The notes beneath the pieces were generated by a model. It did no database searches. It worked only from the letters and a program-made list of their open reading frames with translations, and was not told the DNA's origin. The translations under genes were made by a program, and so were the position numbers. A stretch of DNA of 52,249 bases from Prevotellaceae bacterium (GTDB lineage Bacteria; Bacteroidota; Bacteroidia; Bacteroidales; UBA932), in assembly GCA_031270845.1 (NCBI GenBank), contig JAISXF010000010.1:1-52249 (forward strand). The letters are read 5' to 3'. How positions within the stretch are numbered: position 1 is the first letter of the stretch; each line of letters opens with the position of its first letter. Shown here in pieces: positions 10,294 through 50,671 of the stretch.

Positions 10294-10365
10294 TAAATGA
10301 TTGACAGGGAATGATTAAAGATACGTACGCTGTAATGCGCAATGTGTAATCCGTACTTCAAAAAA

Positions 10366-10691
10366 CGTAACTACTTTTTGTAAAAACGTAACTACTTTTT
10401 GATAAAAGGTAACTACTTTTCGTAAAAAGGTAACTACTTTTCGACGAAAGGTAACTACTTTTCGTAAAAAGGTAACTACTTTTCGTAAAAAGGTAACTAC
10501 TTTTCGTAAAAAGGTAACTACTTTTCGACGAAAGGTAACTACTTTTCGACGAAAGGTAACTACTTTTCGACGAAAGGTAACTACTTTTCGTAAAAAGGTA
10601 ACTACTTTTCGACGAAAGGTAACTACTTTTCGTAAAAAGGTAACTACTTTTCGACGAAAGGTAACTACTTTTCGTAAAAAGGTAACTACTT
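10366..10691. repeat. Exact-period 21-bp tandem array, 15.5 units of two types
   Basis: Units begin every 21 bp from 10366 to 10681 with no indel. The common part is GGTAACTACTTTTCG, followed by TAAAAA (type a) or ACGAAA (type b). The first two units are diverged (CGTAACTACTTTTTG). From unit 3 the order is a b a a a b b b a b a b a, followed by a truncated unit. Each unit has dyad symmetry: TACTTTTCG can pair with CGAAAGGTA when G-U pairs are allowed, and the type a change keeps most pairs. The array is non-coding and occupies most of the 561-bp gap between 10293 and 10855. Confidence 0.93.
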
Positions 10692-10760: not shown

Positions 10761-10821
10761 AATACGGATTATGAATTACGGATTAGGCAAAACGTAATTC
10801 GTAATTCGTAATTTGTAATTA
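10761..10821. repeat. Heptamer repeats AATACGG/ATTATGA/ATTACGG and GTAATTC, inverted arms
   Basis: Four 7-bp units (AATACGG, ATTATGA, ATTACGG, ATTAGGC) at 10761-10788 are followed by four more (GTAATTC twice, GTAATTT, GTAATTA) at 10794-10821. GAATTACG and CGTAATTC are complementary, so the block can form a hairpin. It ends just before the -7 element of the next gene, as at 1784-1930. Confidence 0.75.
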
Positions 10822-28702: not shown

Positions 28703-29533
28703 TCAATAACCGGTAACTGTTAATCCGTCGTAAGCCGGCAGGACGTTGGGCGGCAGGGCGGCGGCGAGTTCGGCGTGCGGTTCAATCTGGTGCGAGAGAT
28801 GCGAGAGGTATAGCCGCTTCGGTTGCAGCTCGTCGTACAGCGCCAGCGCTTCGGGTAAGGAAAAGTGCGACAGGTGCGGCGTGCGCCGGATGACATTCAA
28901 TACCAAAATATCTAATCCTTGCAGTTTCTCCTTCTCGCGCTCGTCGATACGGCTCGCATCGGTGATGTAGGCCAGGCGGCCGATCCGGAACCCCAAGACG
29001 GGCAACCGGTGATGCCATACGCGGACAGGTATTATTTCAATTCCGTTGATAGTAAACGGGTCTTCGTCAATGGTGCAGAGGTTAAATTCGGGGACTCCGG
29101 GGTATTTATGCTCGGCAAAGGCGTAGGCGTACTCGCGCTTAAGGGCGTCGTGTACACGTGTTTCGGCATATACATCGACCGGCTTTCCGGTCGTATAGTT
29201 CAGGGCGCGGACATCGTCGAGGCCGCCGGTGTGGTCTTTGTGTTCGTGGGTGAGGAGGATGCCGTCGAGGCGGGTAACCTGTGCGCGAAGCATTTGTTGA
29301 CGGAAATCGGGGCCGGCATCGATCAGCAGGCGGGCATGGCATGAGCCTTGTGCGACGTCGAATAATACCGACGCACGCAGGCGCCGGTCGCGGGCATCGG
29401 CAGAACGGCATACCCGACAGTTACACGCAATAACCGGTATGCCCTGCGATGTGCCTGTGCCAAGAAATGTCAGGCTGACGGCGCATTTATTATCATCATT
29501 CATTGTATCATCATTCATTTTATCATCATTCAT
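28703..29533 (-). CDS. MBL-fold metallo-hydrolase, PhnP-like phosphodiesterase
   Basis: A protein of up to 276 residues. After the start it shows LTFLGTGTSQGIPVIACNC, the Cys motif CNCRVCRS seen in PhnP-like proteins, LLIDAGPDFRQQM, the metal site THEHKDHTGGLDDVRALN, a later WHHRLPVLGFRIG and the third-metal Asp region YITDASRI, then LSHLSHQI. PhnP of Escherichia coli hydrolyses phosphoribosyl cyclic phosphate; Bacteroidota homologues lack an established substrate, so only a cyclic phosphodiesterase role is likely. The N-terminus is odd: a 15-bp repeat encodes MNDDK, MNDDT, MNDDN, giving three possible starts (29533, 29518, 29503) before the fold begins. The first start overlaps the stop of the transporter gene by 4 bp (ATGA), implying translational coupling. 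Confidence 0.9.
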   Translation of the reverse strand: MNDDKMNDDTMNDDNKCAVSLTFLGTGTSQGIPVIACNCRVCRSADARDRRLRASVLFDVAQGSCHARLLIDAGPDFRQQMLRAQVTRLDGILLTHEHKDHTGGLDDVRALNYTTGKPVDVYAETRVHDALKREYAYAFAEHKYPGVPEFNLCTIDEDPFTINGIEIIPVRVWHHRLPVLGFRIGRLAYITDASRIDEREKEKLQGLDILVLNVIRRTPHLSHFSLPEALALYDELQPKRLYLSHLSHQIEPHAELAAALPPNVLPAYDGLTVTGY

Positions 29534-30972
29534 CGTTTCATCCCGCGCAGCGGTTTTATTTTCTTAAAAAATAACCAGAGCAGGAGGAGCGTAACGCCGC
29601 CGCCGAGGGCGTAGGAGAGGGTGTGCGGAAGCGAAAAACCTTCTTTGGCAATGAGGATGTAAGTGCTGCAAACGAGGGTCATAAAGAGGGCGGGAATGAG
29701 TGTGAGCAGGTAGTTTTTATGTTCTTTGGCGAGATATACGGTTATCGCCCATAGCGTAAATACGGCCAGCGTTTGGTTGCTCCATGCAAAATAACGCCAG
29801 ATGATGTCGAAGCTTTTCTGACTGAGCAACAGCAGAACAAAGCACAGGGCAAAGAGCGGGGCGGAGATGACAATCCGGTTTTTGAGGCGTTTCTGCGGGT
29901 ACCGGAGGATGTCGGCAATGATAAGGCGTGCGGAGCGGAAGGCGGTATCGGCAGAGGTGATTGGCGCGGCGACGACGCCGAGCAGCGCGAGGATGGCGCC
30001 GGCGGCGCCGAGCCAGTCGTGCGAAATTTTATCGACCACCACGGCGGCGCTGTTATTGTTGGTTTCCATGAATGCGTGAAAGCCGTCGAGTCCTTTGAAA
30101 AAGGCCATTGCGGCGGCAGCCCATATCATCGCGACGATGCCTTCGGCGACCATCGCGCCGAAGAAAATTTTGCGGCCGGCGGTCTCATTTTTCATACATC
30201 GTGCCATCAGGGGCGACTGTGTGGCGTGGAATCCCGATATGGCGCCGCAAGCGACGGAAATAAACAGCATCGGGAGGAGCGGCAGGGAGGCGGCAGCGGG
30301 GTGCCGGTTGCCGAGGGTGTCCCAGGTGAGTTCGGTCATGTCGCGATGATGAAAAAGCATAGCCGTGAGGATGCCCGCCGCCATAAACAGCAGCGCAAAG
30401 CCGAAGAGCGGGTAAATGCGCCCGATGATTTTATCGACAGGAAAAAGCGTCGCCGCGATGTAGTAGCAAAGGATAATGGCAATCCAGAGGCGGTAGTCGA
30501 TAGCGCCGCCGGTGAGCTTCGTGAGCAGGTCGGCAGGGCCGGAAACAAAGACTACGCCGACGAGTATCATCAGGATGATCGTGAAGAGGCGCATAACCTG
30601 TTTGACGGACAGCCCCAACTGGTCGCCAATGATTTCGGGCAGGCTTTTGCCGTCGCTGCGGAGGGAAATCATCCCCGAAAGGTAGTCGTGTACGGCTCCG
30701 CCGAAGATGGTTCCGAAGGCAATCCACAGAAAGACCACCGGCCCGTACATCGCGCCCATAATGGCGCCGAAGATAGGCCCCAAGCCCGCAATGTTAAGAA
30801 ACTGGATGAGGAATATTTTCTTATTCGACATCGGTACATAATCGACCCCGTCGAAGAGGGTCGTTGCCGGTGTGGGGCGGCTGGCGTCGGGCGCAAAGAC
30901 GCGGTCAACATATTTGCCATAGACGAAATACATGGCCGTCATAAAAGCAAGCGCTGCGAGAAATGTAAACAT
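29530..30972 (-). CDS. Carbon starvation protein CstA family transporter
   Basis: A protein of 480 residues with many membrane segments, the short form common in anaerobes (Escherichia coli CstA is about 700). Recognised segments are YVPMSNKKIFLIQFLNIAGLGPIFGAI, FGTIFGGAVHDYLSGMISLRSDGKSLPEI and GFHATQSPLMARCMKNE, followed by SADTAFRSARLIIADI, all CstA hallmarks. The family imports peptides or pyruvate in the inner membrane; the substrate here is unknown. The stop codon overlaps the start of the MBL-fold gene. The upstream gap (30973-31098) holds six heptamers and a small CCCC-TGAC-GGGG hairpin but no clear -7 element, so it may also be read from the DUF6261-like gene's promoter. Confidence 0.93.
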   Translation of the reverse strand: MFTFLAALAFMTAMYFVYGKYVDRVFAPDASRPTPATTLFDGVDYVPMSNKKIFLIQFLNIAGLGPIFGAIMGAMYGPVVFLWIAFGTIFGGAVHDYLSGMISLRSDGKSLPEIIGDQLGLSVKQVMRLFTIILMILVGVVFVSGPADLLTKLTGGAIDYRLWIAIILCYYIAATLFPVDKIIGRIYPLFGFALLFMAAGILTAMLFHHRDMTELTWDTLGNRHPAAASLPLLPMLFISVACGAISGFHATQSPLMARCMKNETAGRKIFFGAMVAEGIVAMIWAAAAMAFFKGLDGFHAFMETNNNSAAVVVDKISHDWLGAAGAILALLGVVAAPITSADTAFRSARLIIADILRYPQKRLKNRIVISAPLFALCFVLLLLSQKSFDIIWRYFAWSNQTLAVFTLWAITVYLAKEHKNYLLTLIPALFMTLVCSTYILIAKEGFSLPHTLSYALGGGVTLLLLWLFFKKIKPLRGMKR

Positions 30973-30991
30973 AATGCCTTAAATTTTTAAC

Positions 30992-31033
30992 GATGAACTG
31001 TGAACGATGAACGATGAACGGTGAACGGTGAAC
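30992..31033. repeat. Six tandem heptamers of the form GATGAAC/GGTGAAC
   Basis: GATGAAC, TGTGAAC, GATGAAC, GATGAAC, GGTGAAC and GGTGAAC run without gap for 42 bp, directly in the leader of the CstA-type gene and 20 bp before its start codon. The unit resembles CGATGAA at 1805-1830. Confidence 0.85.
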
Positions 31034-31098
31034 CGCGCTTGACGCATCTTCCGTTAGGAAATACAGATCCCCTGACGGGGAAAAAGACAGGCGGCGGG

Positions 31099-32055
31099 TC
31101 ATGATACAATATTAAAAGTTACGATTGTTTGTCCGGAATAATTTCCGATACCGGAAATAAAAATCGTGGCTAAGCCGGGCTCGATATTGTCCTCGTAGGT
31201 GAGGGTGAAGTCGCGCCCGAAGAGCAGCTCGACCGTCGTTTCGACGCCGTAATGAACGACGGTGAGGCGGAGTTCCGGGATCACAAATATGGGGCTGCCG
31301 GTGTAAGGTTCGGGCGCGATCGGGGCGACGTAAGCCGTCGCAATGCTGGGACGCACATGCAGCCGCCCGTAATGCTCGAAGAGCACGATATTATAATGAT
31401 GCACGGTAACGTTCCAATGCCTCACGAGCGCGCTGTAGTCGGTCGTTTCATTGATGGTGATGAGCGAAGTGAGGCGCCCGGCGAGGGCGCGCATGGCGAG
31501 GTCGGTGGTGCGGCGCAGGGTTTTGAGGGGCGTTTTGGGGCGGGCCATGCCCTCATCAATAGTATGGTCGGCATCGGTTTTGAACGCCTCATTGAGGCGC
31601 TTAAGCTCATCGACCCAGTCGGTGAGGTGAAGCATCTGCAAGGCCGGCAGGTAGTCGGCGCTGCGCAGGTTTTCGAGGACGGCGTCGATAGCGGTCGTCG
31701 TGGAGTCGTAGGCCAGCTGGAGCAGGTGTTCAAAGGCTTCTATCGGCACGCTGAGGTGCTCGGCGGCGTCGCGCACGGTCGGCTCAAAGTGCTTACAATA
31801 AATGCGCACGATACCGAACAGGCACCGGAATACCCTTTTACGCTCCCTGTTCAACTGTTTTTTATTTCTCGTATAGGAGTTCACAAAGACATAGTTAATG
31901 ACCTCCGTTTCACGTTCGATAGCGAGCTTGTAGGCGGCGAGTTCGGCGGGTGCATCGAGCAGGTCGCGGTACTGGTCGAAAATCCGGTATATGATTTCGT
32001 GAAATTCGAGATGCCCGGTATTCCGGTAGTAATAGGTTCTTGGTTTTTCTAACAT
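31099..32055 (-). CDS. DUF6261-like protein with C-terminal Ig-like segment
   Basis: A protein of 318 residues from the ATG at 32055 (MLEKPRTYYYRNTGHLEFHEII). The start resembles the RN.EH.EF opening of a helical protein family found in many Bacteroidales (DUF6261), often in several copies per genome; function is unknown. Residues 1-210 are predicted to be almost all helical with conserved RKRVFRCLFGIVRIYCKH and a MLHLTDWVDEL segment. The last 60 residues differ: TLTYEDNIEPGLATIFISGIGNYSGQ is the signature of Ig-like MBG/YDG-type modules usually found in surface proteins. There is no signal peptide. Its start is one base after the stop of a repeat-encoded frame (32057-32497), and the probable promoter is at 32632. 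Confidence 0.75.
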   Translation of the reverse strand: MLEKPRTYYYRNTGHLEFHEIIYRIFDQYRDLLDAPAELAAYKLAIERETEVINYVFVNSYTRNKKQLNRERKRVFRCLFGIVRIYCKHFEPTVRDAAEHLSVPIEAFEHLLQLAYDSTTTAIDAVLENLRSADYLPALQMLHLTDWVDELKRLNEAFKTDADHTIDEGMARPKTPLKTLRRTTDLAMRALAGRLTSLITINETTDYSALVRHWNVTVHHYNIVLFEHYGRLHVRPSIATAYVAPIAPEPYTGSPIFVIPELRLTVVHYGVETTVELLFGRDFTLTYEDNIEPGLATIFISGIGNYSGQTIVTFNIVS

Positions 32056-32056
32056 T

Positions 32057-32497
32057 TTATACAATAGATAATAGATTTTTAGACAAAAGATTTTTAGACA
32101 ATAGATTTTTAGACTTTAAGACTGATAGATTTTTAGATAATAGACGGCTTTGCGGGGTGCAAGACAATAGACTTTTAGATAATAGACGGCTTCGCGGGCT
32201 GCGGCCTTGCAGATTGATAGATAATAGACGGCTTCGCAGGGTGCGGCCTTGCAGATTGATAGATAATAGACGGCTTTGCGGGGTGCGGCCTTGCAGATTG
32301 ATAGATAATAGACGGCTTTGCGGGGTGCGGCCTTGCAGAAAACAGTTTTCTACACGGACTGTAGCCTGCAACCCTTGCAGAAAATAGTTTTCTACACGGA
32401 ATACAGCCTGACGACAGGGTAGAAAACTGTTAACTACCCCGTCACACGTCATGATTCCGGGTAGAAAATTATTTTTTATAAGGATTGTTGTCTCCAT
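32057..32497 (-). CDS. Possible 146-residue repeat peptide, translationally linked to the DUF6261-like gene
   Basis: An open frame across the 42-bp array, so each unit encodes 14 residues. Repeats include RTPQSRLLSINLQG (twice) and variants such as RQAVFRVENYFLQG and LQATVRVENCFLQG. The position of L/V, N and FLQG or NLQG is kept although the DNA of the units changes. The stop TAA (32059-32057) is followed after one base by the ATG of the DUF6261-like gene, a typical coupling distance. Against coding: no signal, low complexity, the opposite strand is also open because the period is a multiple of three, and simple repeats produce such frames by chance. It may be a leader peptide, a real repeat protein or an artefact. 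Confidence 0.3.
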   Translation of the reverse strand: METTILIKNNFLPGIMTCDGVVNSFLPCRQAVFRVENYFLQGLQATVRVENCFLQGRTPQSRLLSINLQGRTPQSRLLSINLQGRTLRSRLLSINLQGRSPRSRLLSKSLLSCTPQSRLLSKNLSVLKSKNLLSKNLLSKNLLSIV

Positions 32498-32640
32498 TCC
32501 GTTTTGCTGTCTATATTCTGTTAGTCTAAAAGTCTAAAGTCCGTGTAGCTGTCTATATTCTGTTAGTCTAAATGTCTAAAGTCCGTGTAGCTGTCCATGT
32601 TCTGTTAGTCTAAAAGTCTAAAGTCCGTCTGCAAAGATAG
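32066..32640. repeat. Phase-locked 42-bp repeat superarray with several unit sequences
   Basis: From 32079 the sequence falls into 42-bp units with no loss of phase up to about 32624. Units at 32163-32330 share AGACGGCTT.GC and, in part, CCTTGCAGATTGATAGATAA. Units at 32331 and 32373 share CCTTGCAGAAAA.AGTTTTC. Units at 32415 and 32457 share GGGTAGAAAA. Units at 32499, 32541 and 32583 share CTGTC.AT.TTCTGTTAGTC. The left end (32066-32115) has a nested 15-bp repeat AGATTTTTAGACAAA whose sequence is roughly inverted in the right-end units (GTCTAAAAGTCTAAAG). The whole array lies between the DUF6261-like start and a minus-strand -7 element, so it would be transcribed. Confidence 0.85.
32632..32639 (-). 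promoter_or_regulatory. Minus-strand -7 element (TATCTTTG) for the DUF6261-like gene
   Basis: CAAAGATA on the plus strand is TATCTTTG on the minus strand. Transcription would start near 32625 and read through all 42-bp units as a leader of about 570 nt before the ATG at 32055. Confidence 0.5.
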
Positions 32641-32690
32641 AAATAATTTAAGGGATTGGTAAAAAGTATCGAATTTTCAATAATTTCATG

Positions 32691-32698
32691 TATCTTTG
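32691..32698 (+). promoter_or_regulatory. -7 promoter element TATCTTTG of the Lrp/AsnC gene
   Basis: TATCTTTG matches the consensus. The ATG at 32688 overlaps it and so cannot be the start; the real start is 32712 or 32718, with a leader of only 9-15 nt. Confidence 0.65.
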
Positions 32699-32711
32699 TG
32701 CCTTAAATTTG

Positions 32712-33269
32712 ATGACTATGAGTACCCGTTACAAGATTGATCCGCTGGATCAGAAAATTCTCAGCTTTTTAATTAAGAATGCCCGGATGGCTTATCTCGA
32801 AATAGCCCGCGAATGCGGGATTTCGGGGGCGGCGGTGCATCAGCGCGTGAAAAAAATGGAAGACGCCGGCATTATCACCGGCGCCCGGCTGCTGGTCAAA
32901 CCGCCGGCGCTGGGTTTTGACGTATGCGCTTTTGTGGGCGTTCATCTTTTGCAGTCAGGGCTTTATCCCGGCACGGTGGAGGCCATTCAAAAGATCCCCG
33001 AAGTGGTCGAGTGCCATTTTGTGACGGGTGATTATGCGCTGCTGTTAAAGCTCTTTTGCCGCGACCACGAGCATCTGATGGATGTATTGCTCAATACAAT
33101 ACTCAATCTTCCGAATGTGAGCAAAACGGAAACGATTATTTCGCTCGACCAGATTTTTGAGCGGCAGGTATGGGTCAAGGATAAGCGGACGCCCAAAGCC
33201 AAATCGGCCGCAGGCGCTGCGCCGGCGCAGAAAAAAGCCGGGCGGAAGGCAAAGGCGGCGGGGAAGTAG
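32712..33269 (+). CDS. Lrp/AsnC family transcriptional regulator with basic C-terminal tail
   Basis: A protein of 185 residues from ATG 32712 (183 from 32718). Residues 5-60 are the winged helix-turn-helix (LDQKILSFLIKNARMAYLEIARECGISGAAVHQRVKKMEDAGIITG in several pieces). Residues 70-150 are the ligand-binding RAM domain (VGVHLLQSG, IPEVVECHFVTGDYALLLKLFC, LNLPNVSKTETIISL). Lrp-type proteins form octamers or larger and respond to amino acids. The last 24 residues are unusual: rich in Lys and Ala with KKAGRKAKAAGK, like a histone H1 or HU-type tail, and not part of the normal fold. This could give extra non-specific DNA binding. It is a single gene, convergent with ispD, whose stop codon lies 2 bp past its own. 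Confidence 0.92.
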   Translation: MTMSTRYKIDPLDQKILSFLIKNARMAYLEIARECGISGAAVHQRVKKMEDAGIITGARLLVKPPALGFDVCAFVGVHLLQSGLYPGTVEAIQKIPEVVECHFVTGDYALLLKLFCRDHEHLMDVLLNTILNLPNVSKTETIISLDQIFERQVWVKDKRTPKAKSAAGAAPAQKKAGRKAKAAGK

Positions 33270-33271
33270 GG

Positions 33272-33982
33272 CTAACGCCGGAGCGCCATCCATGTTTCGG
33301 CGACGGGCAGGTCGTCGGGCTCCGTAATTTTTATATTGTCGCGACTGCCGTCGATGAGTTTGAGGGCAAATCCGGCGGCCTCAACGGCCGATGCGTCATC
33401 GGTGAAGACGGCATCGGCCGTATCTTTGTAAGCGATGCGCAGCCAGTCGGCGCGGAAAACCTGCGGTGTCTGTACCGCGCAGATGTTTTCGCGCGGGATG
33501 CTGTGGCTGGCGTCGCCTGTTTTTTTGCGCAGCGAATCGGTAACGGGTATCACAGGTACGGCGCTGCCGTGGAGCGCCGCCGTGTCGAAGCTGCGGGCAA
33601 TGACATCAACCGATACGAGCGGGCGGACGCCATCATGGACGGCGATAAAATCCGCGTCGGCTACGGCCAGCGCATTCCGTACCGAAGCGGTGCGGGTGTC
33701 GCCGCCGGCCACTGTGCGATGCGGCACCGCAAATCGGCAAGCCTCGCAGAGCTGCTGCCAGCGGTCGATGTGCGCAGCGGGCAGGGCGACAACAATAGCT
33801 ATCGCGGCGTCGTAACGGATAAATGGGGTCATCGCGTGCATCAGCAGCGGTCTGCCGGAGAGCGGCAAAAACTGCTTCGGGATACCGGCGCCCATGCGCA
33901 GTCCCTGTCCGCCGGCGACGATAATCACGCAGCGGGAGGCGCCCAGCGCCGGCGGGCGGTTGTCGGGCGACGGCTGTTCCAT
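33272..33982 (-). CDS. ispD: 2-C-methyl-D-erythritol 4-phosphate cytidylyltransferase
   Basis: A protein of 236 residues from the ATG at 33982 (MEQPSPDNRPPALGASRCVI). It transfers CMP from CTP to MEP in the non-mevalonate isoprenoid pathway. Motifs: VAGGQGLRMGAGIPKQFLPL (nucleotide loop), AVHDGVRPLVS (substrate and metal site), TPQVFR, TDDASAVEAAG and KITEPDDL. A longer frame reaches upstream to 34228 but overlaps dnaB and encodes a low-quality Arg/Pro-rich stretch, so it is not used. The start lies one base after the dnaB stop codon, so ispD is the second gene of a dnaB-ispD operon and is probably translationally coupled. Confidence 0.95.
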   Translation of the reverse strand: MEQPSPDNRPPALGASRCVIIVAGGQGLRMGAGIPKQFLPLSGRPLLMHAMTPFIRYDAAIAIVVALPAAHIDRWQQLCEACRFAVPHRTVAGGDTRTASVRNALAVADADFIAVHDGVRPLVSVDVIARSFDTAALHGSAVPVIPVTDSLRKKTGDASHSIPRENICAVQTPQVFRADWLRIAYKDTADAVFTDDASAVEAAGFALKLIDGSRDNIKITEPDDLPVAETWMALRR

Positions 33983-33983
33983 C

Positions 33984-35591
33984 TTAAAAGGCATCTTTGA
34001 CGGGCGGCGGGCCGGGGAACGGGTCGGAAGTATCGGGCTCGAACGTCGCATTGTATTCGATACCGCTGCCGGCCGACTCATTTGTTTTCGCTTCCTTTGC
34101 CTTGCTCCCTTTTTTCGACGCACCCATCGCCGAACGATAGACGTTTTGCGCGGTGGTACTGATATTGGATGTCGTGGCGGCGGCGTCTTCGTAAGGCCAA
34201 TCGACAAATTTCGCGTGCCGGTGTTCAAATTTCAACCGCACGTCGCCCGTCGCGCCGTTACGGTGCTTGGCGATCATGATTACGGCCAGGCCTTCGGTAT
34301 TTTCTCCGTATTCTTCGTCGTTCATGCCGTAGTATTCGGGGCGGTGGATGAACAGCACGAGGTCGGCATCCTGTTCGATAGCGCCCGATTCGCGGAGGTC
34401 GTTCAGCTGCGGGCGCTTCTTGCTGCGTTCGCGTGCTTCGACCGAGCGGTTCAGCTGCGAGAGCGCGACAATCGGCACGTTCAGCTCTTTTGCAATCGCT
34501 TTCAGCGACCGCGATATGGCCGATACTTCCTGTTCGCGGATGCCTTTTTGCAGTTCGGGCGGGCCGGTCATCAACTGCAGGTAGTCGATACATATCATTT
34601 GCACTTTGTGCGAGGCGACCAATTTGCGGGCTTTGGAACGAAATTCATAAATCGACAGCGCCGGCGTATCGTCGATGAAGAGCGGAGCTTCCCGCAGTTT
34701 TTGCAGTCCGGCCTCGAGCTGCTGCCACTCGTAGGCTTCCATTTTGATGCCGCCGCGAATCTTCTCCGAAGCAATATCGGCTTCGCTCGCCATGAGCCGC
34801 TTGACCAATTGCTCCGACGACATTTCGAGCGAAAAGAACGCCACCGGCAGGTTGTGATCGACGGTGATATTGCGCGCCATCGAAAGCACGAAGGCCGTTT
34901 TTCCCATCGACGGCCGTGCGGCGACGATAATTAAGTCCGACGGCTGCCAGCCCTGCGTCACGCGGTCGAGCTTCGTGAAGCCCGACGGGATACCGATAAA
35001 GCCGTCTTCCTTCGTCTGCGCTTCTTCGAGCGCCTTAATCGACCGCTCGATGATGGTATTGACGTGCTCTGTTTCACGATGAATATTGCCTTCGGCGATT
35101 TCAAATATTTTCTGCTGGGCGTCGTCGAGCAATGTCGTTACATTGGCGTCCTCTTCAAAGGCATCGCGCTGTATTTCCGACGACGCGGTGATTAGCTGCC
35201 GCTGAATATATTTTTCCGACAGCAGTTTGGCGTGGTATTCCACATGCGCCGCCGAACCGACCGTCATCGTTAGTTGCGAGAGATAATACGGGCCGCCGAT
35301 TTCGTCCAGATGACCTTTCTTTTTCAATTCTGCGGCGACCGTCAGCATATCCACCGGCTCATGCCGCTGCGAGAGGGCTTGGATGGCCGCAAATATTTTT
35401 TCATGCCCTTCGTTGTGGAACGTTTTGGGCGCGAGCAGGTCCTGCACTTCGTCGATAGCGTCTTTTTCGAGCATCAGCGCGCCGAGTACTGCTTTCTCCA
35501 AATCCGGCGCATGAGGCGGCATTTTGCCTGCTTCGAGAGCAATCGCTTCAATTGTCCGTTTTGTTAAGGGGGGGGGAGTTGTTTTTGCCAT
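33984..35591 (-). CDS. dnaB: Replicative DNA helicase DnaB
   Basis: A protein of 535 residues from the ATG at 35591 (MAKTTPPPLTKRTIEAIALE). The N-terminal domain has PPHAPDLEKAVLGALMLE and the C-terminal RecA-like motor has Walker A ARPSMGKTAF, Walker B MICIDYLQLM, SQLNRSVEARERSKKRPQLNDLRESGAIEQDAD and FIHRPEYYG. The hexamer unwinds DNA at the replication fork. A disordered tail of about 60 residues follows (ASKKGSKAKEAKTNESAGSG). Codons 6-8 contain nine consecutive C bases (Pro-Pro-Pro), a slippage-prone tract near the start of an essential gene. The promoter is at 35611. The upstream extension to 35663 starts before this promoter and is rejected. Confidence 0.97.
   Translation of the reverse strand: MAKTTPPPLTKRTIEAIALEAGKMPPHAPDLEKAVLGALMLEKDAIDEVQDLLAPKTFHNEGHEKIFAAIQALSQRHEPVDMLTVAAELKKKGHLDEIGGPYYLSQLTMTVGSAAHVEYHAKLLSEKYIQRQLITASSEIQRDAFEEDANVTTLLDDAQQKIFEIAEGNIHRETEHVNTIIERSIKALEEAQTKEDGFIGIPSGFTKLDRVTQGWQPSDLIIVAARPSMGKTAFVLSMARNITVDHNLPVAFFSLEMSSEQLVKRLMASEADIASEKIRGGIKMEAYEWQQLEAGLQKLREAPLFIDDTPALSIYEFRSKARKLVASHKVQMICIDYLQLMTGPPELQKGIREQEVSAISRSLKAIAKELNVPIVALSQLNRSVEARERSKKRPQLNDLRESGAIEQDADLVLFIHRPEYYGMNDEEYGENTEGLAVIMIAKHRNGATGDVRLKFEHRHAKFVDWPYEDAAATTSNISTTAQNVYRSAMGASKKGSKAKEAKTNESAGSGIEYNATFEPDTSDPFPGPPPVKDAF
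35568..35576 (-). repeat. Homopolymer C9 in codons 6-8 of dnaB
   Basis: Nine G on the plus strand are read as CCC CCC CCC in dnaB. Loss or gain of one base would frameshift the essential helicase. Such tracts are usual in phase-variable genes, not in replication genes. Confidence 0.9.
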
Positions 35592-35610
35592 ATAAATTAA
35601 AATTACGCCG

Positions 35611-35618
35611 CAAAGGTA
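35611..35618 (-). promoter_or_regulatory. -7 element (TACCTTTG) of dnaB-ispD
   Basis: CAAAGGTA on the plus strand is a perfect TAnnTTTG on the minus strand, 20 bp before the dnaB ATG. It is divergent from the galE promoter at 35675, with about 57 bp between the two. Confidence 0.7.
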
Positions 35619-35674
35619 CGCATTTTTATATTGACGATTGGAAATGGAAAGGCTAAAATTCAAAATCTAATACG

Positions 35675-49248: not shown

Positions 49249-49256
49249 GTTTTTTT

Positions 49257-49277
49257 GAATTATGAATTATGAATTAC
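49257..49277. repeat. Three heptamers GAATTAT/GAATTAC in the purB-glmM spacer
   Basis: GAATTAT, GAATTAT and GAATTAC are in tandem directly before the glmM start codon, within the 41-bp spacer. Confidence 0.7.
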
Positions 49278-50645: not shown

Positions 50646-50671
50646 TAATTATGAATTATGAATTATGAATT
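50645..50671. repeat. AATTATG heptamers in the purB leader
   Basis: Three tandem AATTATG units lie between the purB -7 element and its start codon and would form nearly the entire leader. Confidence 0.75.

Follow-up and report, generated by a model that had tools for sequence, protein, structure and literature searches.

What keeps a tandem array in a fixed 42-bp register while the sequence of its units changes from one end to the other, and why does such an array lie in front of a gene of the DUF6261 family? Both questions are raised by a locus in a 52,249-nt stretch of a Prevotellaceae metagenome-assembled genome (MAG; contig JAISXF010000010.1), the whole of which is called the window here. 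A first-pass annotation had suggested that the array might encode a repeat peptide, form a structured RNA or owe its unit length to the mechanism that makes it.

Results

A 42-bp register runs through several unit types

When the window sequence was written at 42 bases per line from position 32085, the register was held over 13 units, up to 32630 (Table 1). Self-identity of the array at lag 42 was 0.71, while 100 dinucleotide shuffles reached 0.35 at best over all lags, and the best lag in the range 30-54 was 42 in every 126-bp segment slid along 32085-32630. Lag 42 was still the best at the joins between unit types, where neighbouring units share just 15-22 of 42 bases, and TRF returned period 42 at 32127-32339, 32331-32410 and 32498-32628. 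The array is real and far beyond chance, and the roughly 13 phase-locked units of the first-pass annotation, with 42 as the best period throughout, are confirmed. The unit types described there were also recovered. The sequence does not change completely between them, as had been claimed; because neighbours at the joins keep part of their sequence in common, the change is stepwise. The segment at the gene-proximal end, 32065-32114, has a period of 15 bp and not 42. AGAC-type repeats of the kind seen in that segment recur at many sites of the genome, and ends of this type are the only ones seen when the window element is viewed as a MITE. Elsewhere, AGAC-type elements were found at L016:290-499, L023 and L026:130-320, built as nested inverted tandem repeats (GACGGAACAGA/TAGACTTTTAGACAA versus GTCTCTGTTCC/GTCTATTGTCTAAAA).

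Table 1. Features of the DUF6261 locus in the window
Feature	Position	Strand	Basis
Heptad repeats AACGATG/AACGGTG, directly downstream of DUF6261	30989..31033		TRF
DUF6261 gene, 318 aa; DUF6261 domain at residues 63-215 and C-terminal Ig-like tail	31099..32055	-	Pfam, alignment
Open frame through the array, 146 aa; judged fortuitous	32057..32497	-	ORF list, frame statistics
15-bp repeats (AGACAATAGATTTTT), gene-proximal end of the array	32065..32114		TRF
42-bp array, 13 units, several sequence types, one register	32085..32630		line-up at 42 per line, TRF, lag analysis
Unit type 1 (AGATTGATAGATAATAGACGGCTTTGCGGGGTGCGGCCTTGC), neighbours up to 42/42 identical	32127..32336		TRF and self-comparison
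Middle units, AGAAAACAGTTTTCTACACGG / GGGTAGAAAACTG types	32337..32504		TRF
Unit type TTCTGTTAGTCTAAAAGTCTAAAGTCCGTGTAGCTGTCTATA	32505..32630		TRF and line-up
TAnnTTTG (-7) box at the far array edge, pointing through the array to DUF6261	32632..32639	-	sequence (CAAAGATA on +)
Lrp/AsnC regulator gene, divergent	32718..33269	+	Pfam

Within the units at the far end of the array we noticed GTCTAAAAGTCT, which is inverted relative to AGACTTTTAGA at the opposite end. The core of the middle units is partly self-complementary, as it is in a second array of the same genome, on contig C77. In the C77 array, which lies between two unrelated genes, the unit types succeed one another as in the window array. 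The two arrays are about 60% alike overall (66% over 371 bp by BLAST), and their alignment extends over some 500 bp with zero internal gaps. So much substitution without any indel speaks for a length that is kept constant.

The protein encoded next to the array matches PF19775 (DUF6261) with E=5e-28 and 98.4 bits, above the curated cut-off of 27, so the label "DUF6261-like" given to the gene can be replaced by membership of the family. Its Ig-like tail is similar to the Ig-like domains that are repeated in P0001, a Lachnospiraceae protein (L190). Long DUF6261 forms, in genus g1 and others, likewise carry a C-terminal Ig-like domain as in P0001, with no obvious signal peptide by eye. On the other side of the array, the comparison of 30 AsnC loci from this and related genomes revealed a 42-bp array at the window locus only; at the AsnC loci of the two nearest relatives both the array and the DUF6261 gene are absent. 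The orientation of the AsnC gene relative to its neighbours is flipped between the window (29530-35663) and relative G006 (L031).

The window holds further repeats. An array at 10361-10691 separates a PorP-like gene from the gene that follows. It consists of some 16 units 21 bp long (AAAAAGGTAACTACTTTTCGT), all of them palindromic in part, and CGTAATT heptads lie at 10793-10820; the genome has many 21-bp arrays, none of which was seen adjoining DUF6261. Intergenic repeats of period 7/14 (CGCTGTG, AACGATG, TTCATAC, TGAATTA) lie at 1555-1625, 1784-1933, 30989-31033, 49256-49276 and 50647-50671. Elsewhere in the genome such heptads form inverted pairs around arrays, and those directly downstream of the DUF6261 gene are of the kind that borders array elements at other sites.

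DUF6261 genes are accompanied by arrays of 41 or 42 bp

The first-pass annotation had advised a search for the pattern before other DUF6261 genes, and arrays were found before most of them. In this MAG, a 41/42-bp array lies near 11 of 11 DUF6261 genes, nearly all with a unit of their own. Across five genera of the family, an upstream array was present at 69 of 82 DUF6261 genes, where genomes of one genus do not count as independent samples; these arrays mostly end 40-140 bp before the ATG, and three that overlap the predicted start were excluded from later counts. None of three DUF6261 genes in genus g10 had an array. Across the order (probably Bacteroidales, judging by promoter type, PF19775 and gene content), with one DUF6261 gene taken per locus, the figure was 21 of 29.

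DUF6261 is found in many genera of the order, with up to 38 genes in one chromosome (G298). In this closed chromosome, an array lay within 400 bp of 16 of 23 DUF6261 genes but of 16 of 247 other ORFs; the odds ratio is 33 (p=4e-12). Stretches from nine DUF6261-free genomes, 520 kb in all, contained no array of the 41/42 class, and the same was true of 40 kb from a genome whose only DUF6261 gene is partial. No shared gene family was seen beside arrays that lack DUF6261. These results support the conclusion that the array belongs with the DUF6261 gene.

Unit length is conserved while unit sequence is free

All 65 units scored in the main set were either 42 bp (44 units) or 41 bp (21 units) long, with TRF periods of 38-45 accepted. 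In the order-wide set, with periods of 40-43 accepted, 17 were of 41 bp and four of 42 bp; thus 41-bp units make up about a third of the main-set arrays and the majority elsewhere in the order. Chromosome G298 also holds single arrays of period 40, 43 and 44. The proposal that length is the conserved property therefore holds, with 41/42 bp kept while unit sequence differs between loci.

Unit sequence followed the protein at short distances. Similarity between units rose from 0.43 for proteins of 20-40% identity to 0.80 at 80-90%, and was at background once protein identity fell below about 50%. Close DUF6261 orthologs have units in common, in the same orientation. Units turn over fast and are homogenised locally, neighbours being up to 42/42 identical. 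We saw neither a clear motif common to the units nor a 10.5-bp AT rhythm or intrinsic curvature. Units do tend to be palindromic, to a like degree on the two strands (median z near -1.8 and -1.9), about one third not being clearly so. In the one family tested for compensatory change, comprising 30 distinct units, 34 double changes were counted against 15.6 in shuffles (0/500), and pairing stood at 90.6% versus 44-55% in slid controls; in this family, palindromes are maintained by compensatory change. Taken together, the widespread pairing, the free sequence and a unit length held at 41/42 bp suggest that protein and repeat work together.

Units recur as dispersed satellites in some lineages

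In the genome of the window, units of seven out of ten DUF6261 genes tested recur elsewhere with about 75-100% identity, and no satellites were detected for the other three. Contigs of the MAG often end within these arrays, so that one array may be represented by pieces on different contigs; the statements on satellites rest on copies inside contigs. The neighbours of satellites are ordinary genes (RecA-, RadA-, GltX-like and others), met in every relative orientation, convergent included. Satellites of the C58 family are complete elements, in which common left and right ends, bordered by inverted heptads TGAAGTA/TTCATAC, enclose a variable number of 42-bp units; non-coding, intergenic, repeated and with inverted ends, they correspond to MITEs with a minisatellite core. 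Inverted heptad borders of the same arrangement were observed at L024:7374-7915, as (AATTACG)4, 21-bp arrays and (CGTAATT)4.

A satellite before radA is present in this genome and absent in seven of seven relatives checked, which indicates that such elements come and go; at the empty site the relatives are strongly diverged. Satellites of DUF6261 units, of the same kind and far from any DUF6261 gene, also occur in the distant genus g115, and they are abundant only there and in the genus of the window. In 160 kb from four other DUF6261-bearing genomes no free arrays were found. Hence spreading is limited to some lineages and the gene-adjacent array is the rule; given DUF6261-positive genomes with few of them, free arrays do not track DUF6261 everywhere.

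Arrays are probably transcribed at many loci

The -7 element that had been placed on the minus strand at 32632 is present, and boxes in the same position class are enriched at other loci. Within 150 bp beyond the array we counted 20 sense TAnnTTTG boxes versus five antisense ones at 64 loci, while there was no enrichment between array and gene (6 sense versus 7 antisense). Sense boxes upstream of the array make it probable that at many loci the array forms part of a transcribed leader, as had been supposed for the window. The sense strand of the units was A+C-rich at 45 of the 64 loci (p=1e-4), and this bias, together with the -7 boxes, keeps a role for the RNA open. A structured sense RNA is not favoured: fold stability was similar on both strands, and Rfam families identified nothing apart from a tRNA in the window and eleven further loci. 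Terminators between array and gene were predicted at 2 of 63 loci on the sense strand and 11 of 63 in the antisense control. Terminator-like hairpins within the arrays numbered 7 sense and 13 antisense at 63 DUF6261 loci. The arrays behave as if they stopped antisense transcripts, sense terminator-like hairpins being the rarer ones in both gap and arrays.

DUF6261 matches no known DNA-binding family

Pfam searches with 16 DUF6261 proteins gave no match to Y1/HUH transposases or to ToxN-type families, and none to a known DNA-binding family; matches to defence or phage families were single and weak. The proteins have a neutral to acidic pI. No relatives were found in the PDB or among viruses, and a single-sequence AlphaFold2 model was too poor for use (pLDDT 48). 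In the literature searched, we found nothing linking DUF6261 to repeats and no study of the family; the sole full-text match to its name concerned daptomycin resistance in Streptococcus.

Discussion

Our preferred and still tentative reading is that a DUF6261 gene and its array belong together as a unit of two parts, the repeat being cognate to the gene. From the linkage we infer that the DUF6261 protein would recognise its own array through the units, which most likely act as sites on double-stranded DNA. B-DNA has 10.4-10.5 bp per turn, so that 41/42 bp amounts to four turns; units repeated at this distance would present their sites on one face of the DNA. DNA is favoured as the form recognised because the palindromes show no strand preference, the satellites are free in orientation and the unit length equals four turns. 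Recognition may take place in the first instance at the promoter or leader of the gene itself, and in certain lineages it may extend to satellites, which would have spread there as MITE-like intergenic elements. Tandem homogenisation, by slippage or unequal exchange, would rewrite the sequence of whole arrays, and a length requirement would preserve the register despite this turnover. Conceivably, and here we are more reserved, genes coupled to a cognate repeat in this way represent a system of a new kind: a unit length of four turns would be what is conserved, and the sequence would be a paralog-specific address, free to vary and able to be set down at other sites of the genome too.

The main rival to recognition of DNA is an RNA version. 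A promoter followed by a leader of 41/42-nt repeats, which DUF6261 would bind or process and which would control it, would make a pair similar to type III toxin-antitoxin systems. The sense -7 boxes upstream of the array, with no such excess in the gap, and the A+C bias of the sense strand agree with this, as does the description of type III antitoxins with a conserved monomer length and free sequence and copy number (PMC5086642). We nevertheless consider it unlikely, since no terminator separates array from gene, a -7 box stands between them at 6 of 64 loci, ToxN-type Pfam matches are absent, sense folds are no more stable (26 vs 39), and satellites adjoin genes of unrelated kinds whatever the orientation, convergent pairs included. 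Encoding of a leader peptide, with 14 residues per unit and coupled to DUF6261, seems very improbable. The minus frame reported to end directly before the DUF6261 ATG does exist in the window, with 146 open codons at 32057-32497 and the ATG at 32055. However, 41-bp units shift the frame, open frames are not in excess (41.0 expected and 41 of 43 observed in 42-bp arrays), and no conserved ORF matching that of the window runs through the collinear C77 array, so that the proposed repeat peptide fails.

The other rival supposes that the arrays are passive minisatellites made by slippage, along with which DUF6261 genes merely travel without any interaction. Local homogenisation, the fast turnover of units and the abundance of 7-, 8-, 15- and 21-bp arrays in this genome are what slippage would produce. 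Slippage alone, however, cannot fix a length of 41/42 bp across many unrelated sequences, and it leaves unexplained the enrichment at a single gene family (odds ratio 33), the gap-free divergence of the window and C77 arrays and the compensatory changes. We therefore regard purely passive arrays as improbable. An easily scored, strict partner such as a 41/42-bp array offers a first handle on the function of DUF6261, and arrays in which length is held and sequence is free permit selection on length to be separated from selection on sequence.

Among known systems, the DUF6261-array pair resembles the layouts of two and lacks the defining features of both. Type III toxin-antitoxin loci (ToxIN, CptIN, TenpIN; PMC5086642) have short tandem repeats directly upstream of the gene, whose monomer length is conserved and whose sequence and copy number vary. 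DUF6261 loci share this arrangement as a matter of layout only; they differ in their dispersed satellites and in lacking a terminator, a ToxN-family match and structure on the sense strand, and we reject membership on the missing ToxN-type Pfam match and terminator. The nearest functional analogy would be with REPIN-RAYT systems, where dispersed intergenic palindromes form a distinct repeat class for each RAYT, itself distinctive and single-copy (PMC3116915). In a similar way, each DUF6261 gene comes with a unit of its own, and certain units turn up again as satellites; the gene is tied to its own dispersed repeat class, with three of ten units lacking a satellite. The DUF6261 repeats differ in being 41/42-bp tandem arrays upstream of the gene, and a Y1/HUH transposase partner is missing both among 16 DUF6261 proteins and, as Y1_Tnp, from the genome of the window. 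Y1_Tnp is also absent from genome G001, yet present in two array-free genomes; it does not follow the arrays, and spread driven by a RAYT was rejected.

As an element, the window array most closely resembles the MITE PgRS of Porphyromonas gingivalis, with 41-nt repeats and repetitive flanks in the part of its description used here (PMC4596501). In the same part, BrickBuilt and MITEPgRS/464 of that species are intergenic and MITE-like with a tandem-repeat core, as here, BrickBuilt differing in its 23-nt units, and neither BrickBuilt nor PgRS is tied there to a partner gene of the DUF6261 kind. Minisatellite MITEs of this sort have so far been without a partner, and DUF6261 is a candidate for that role.
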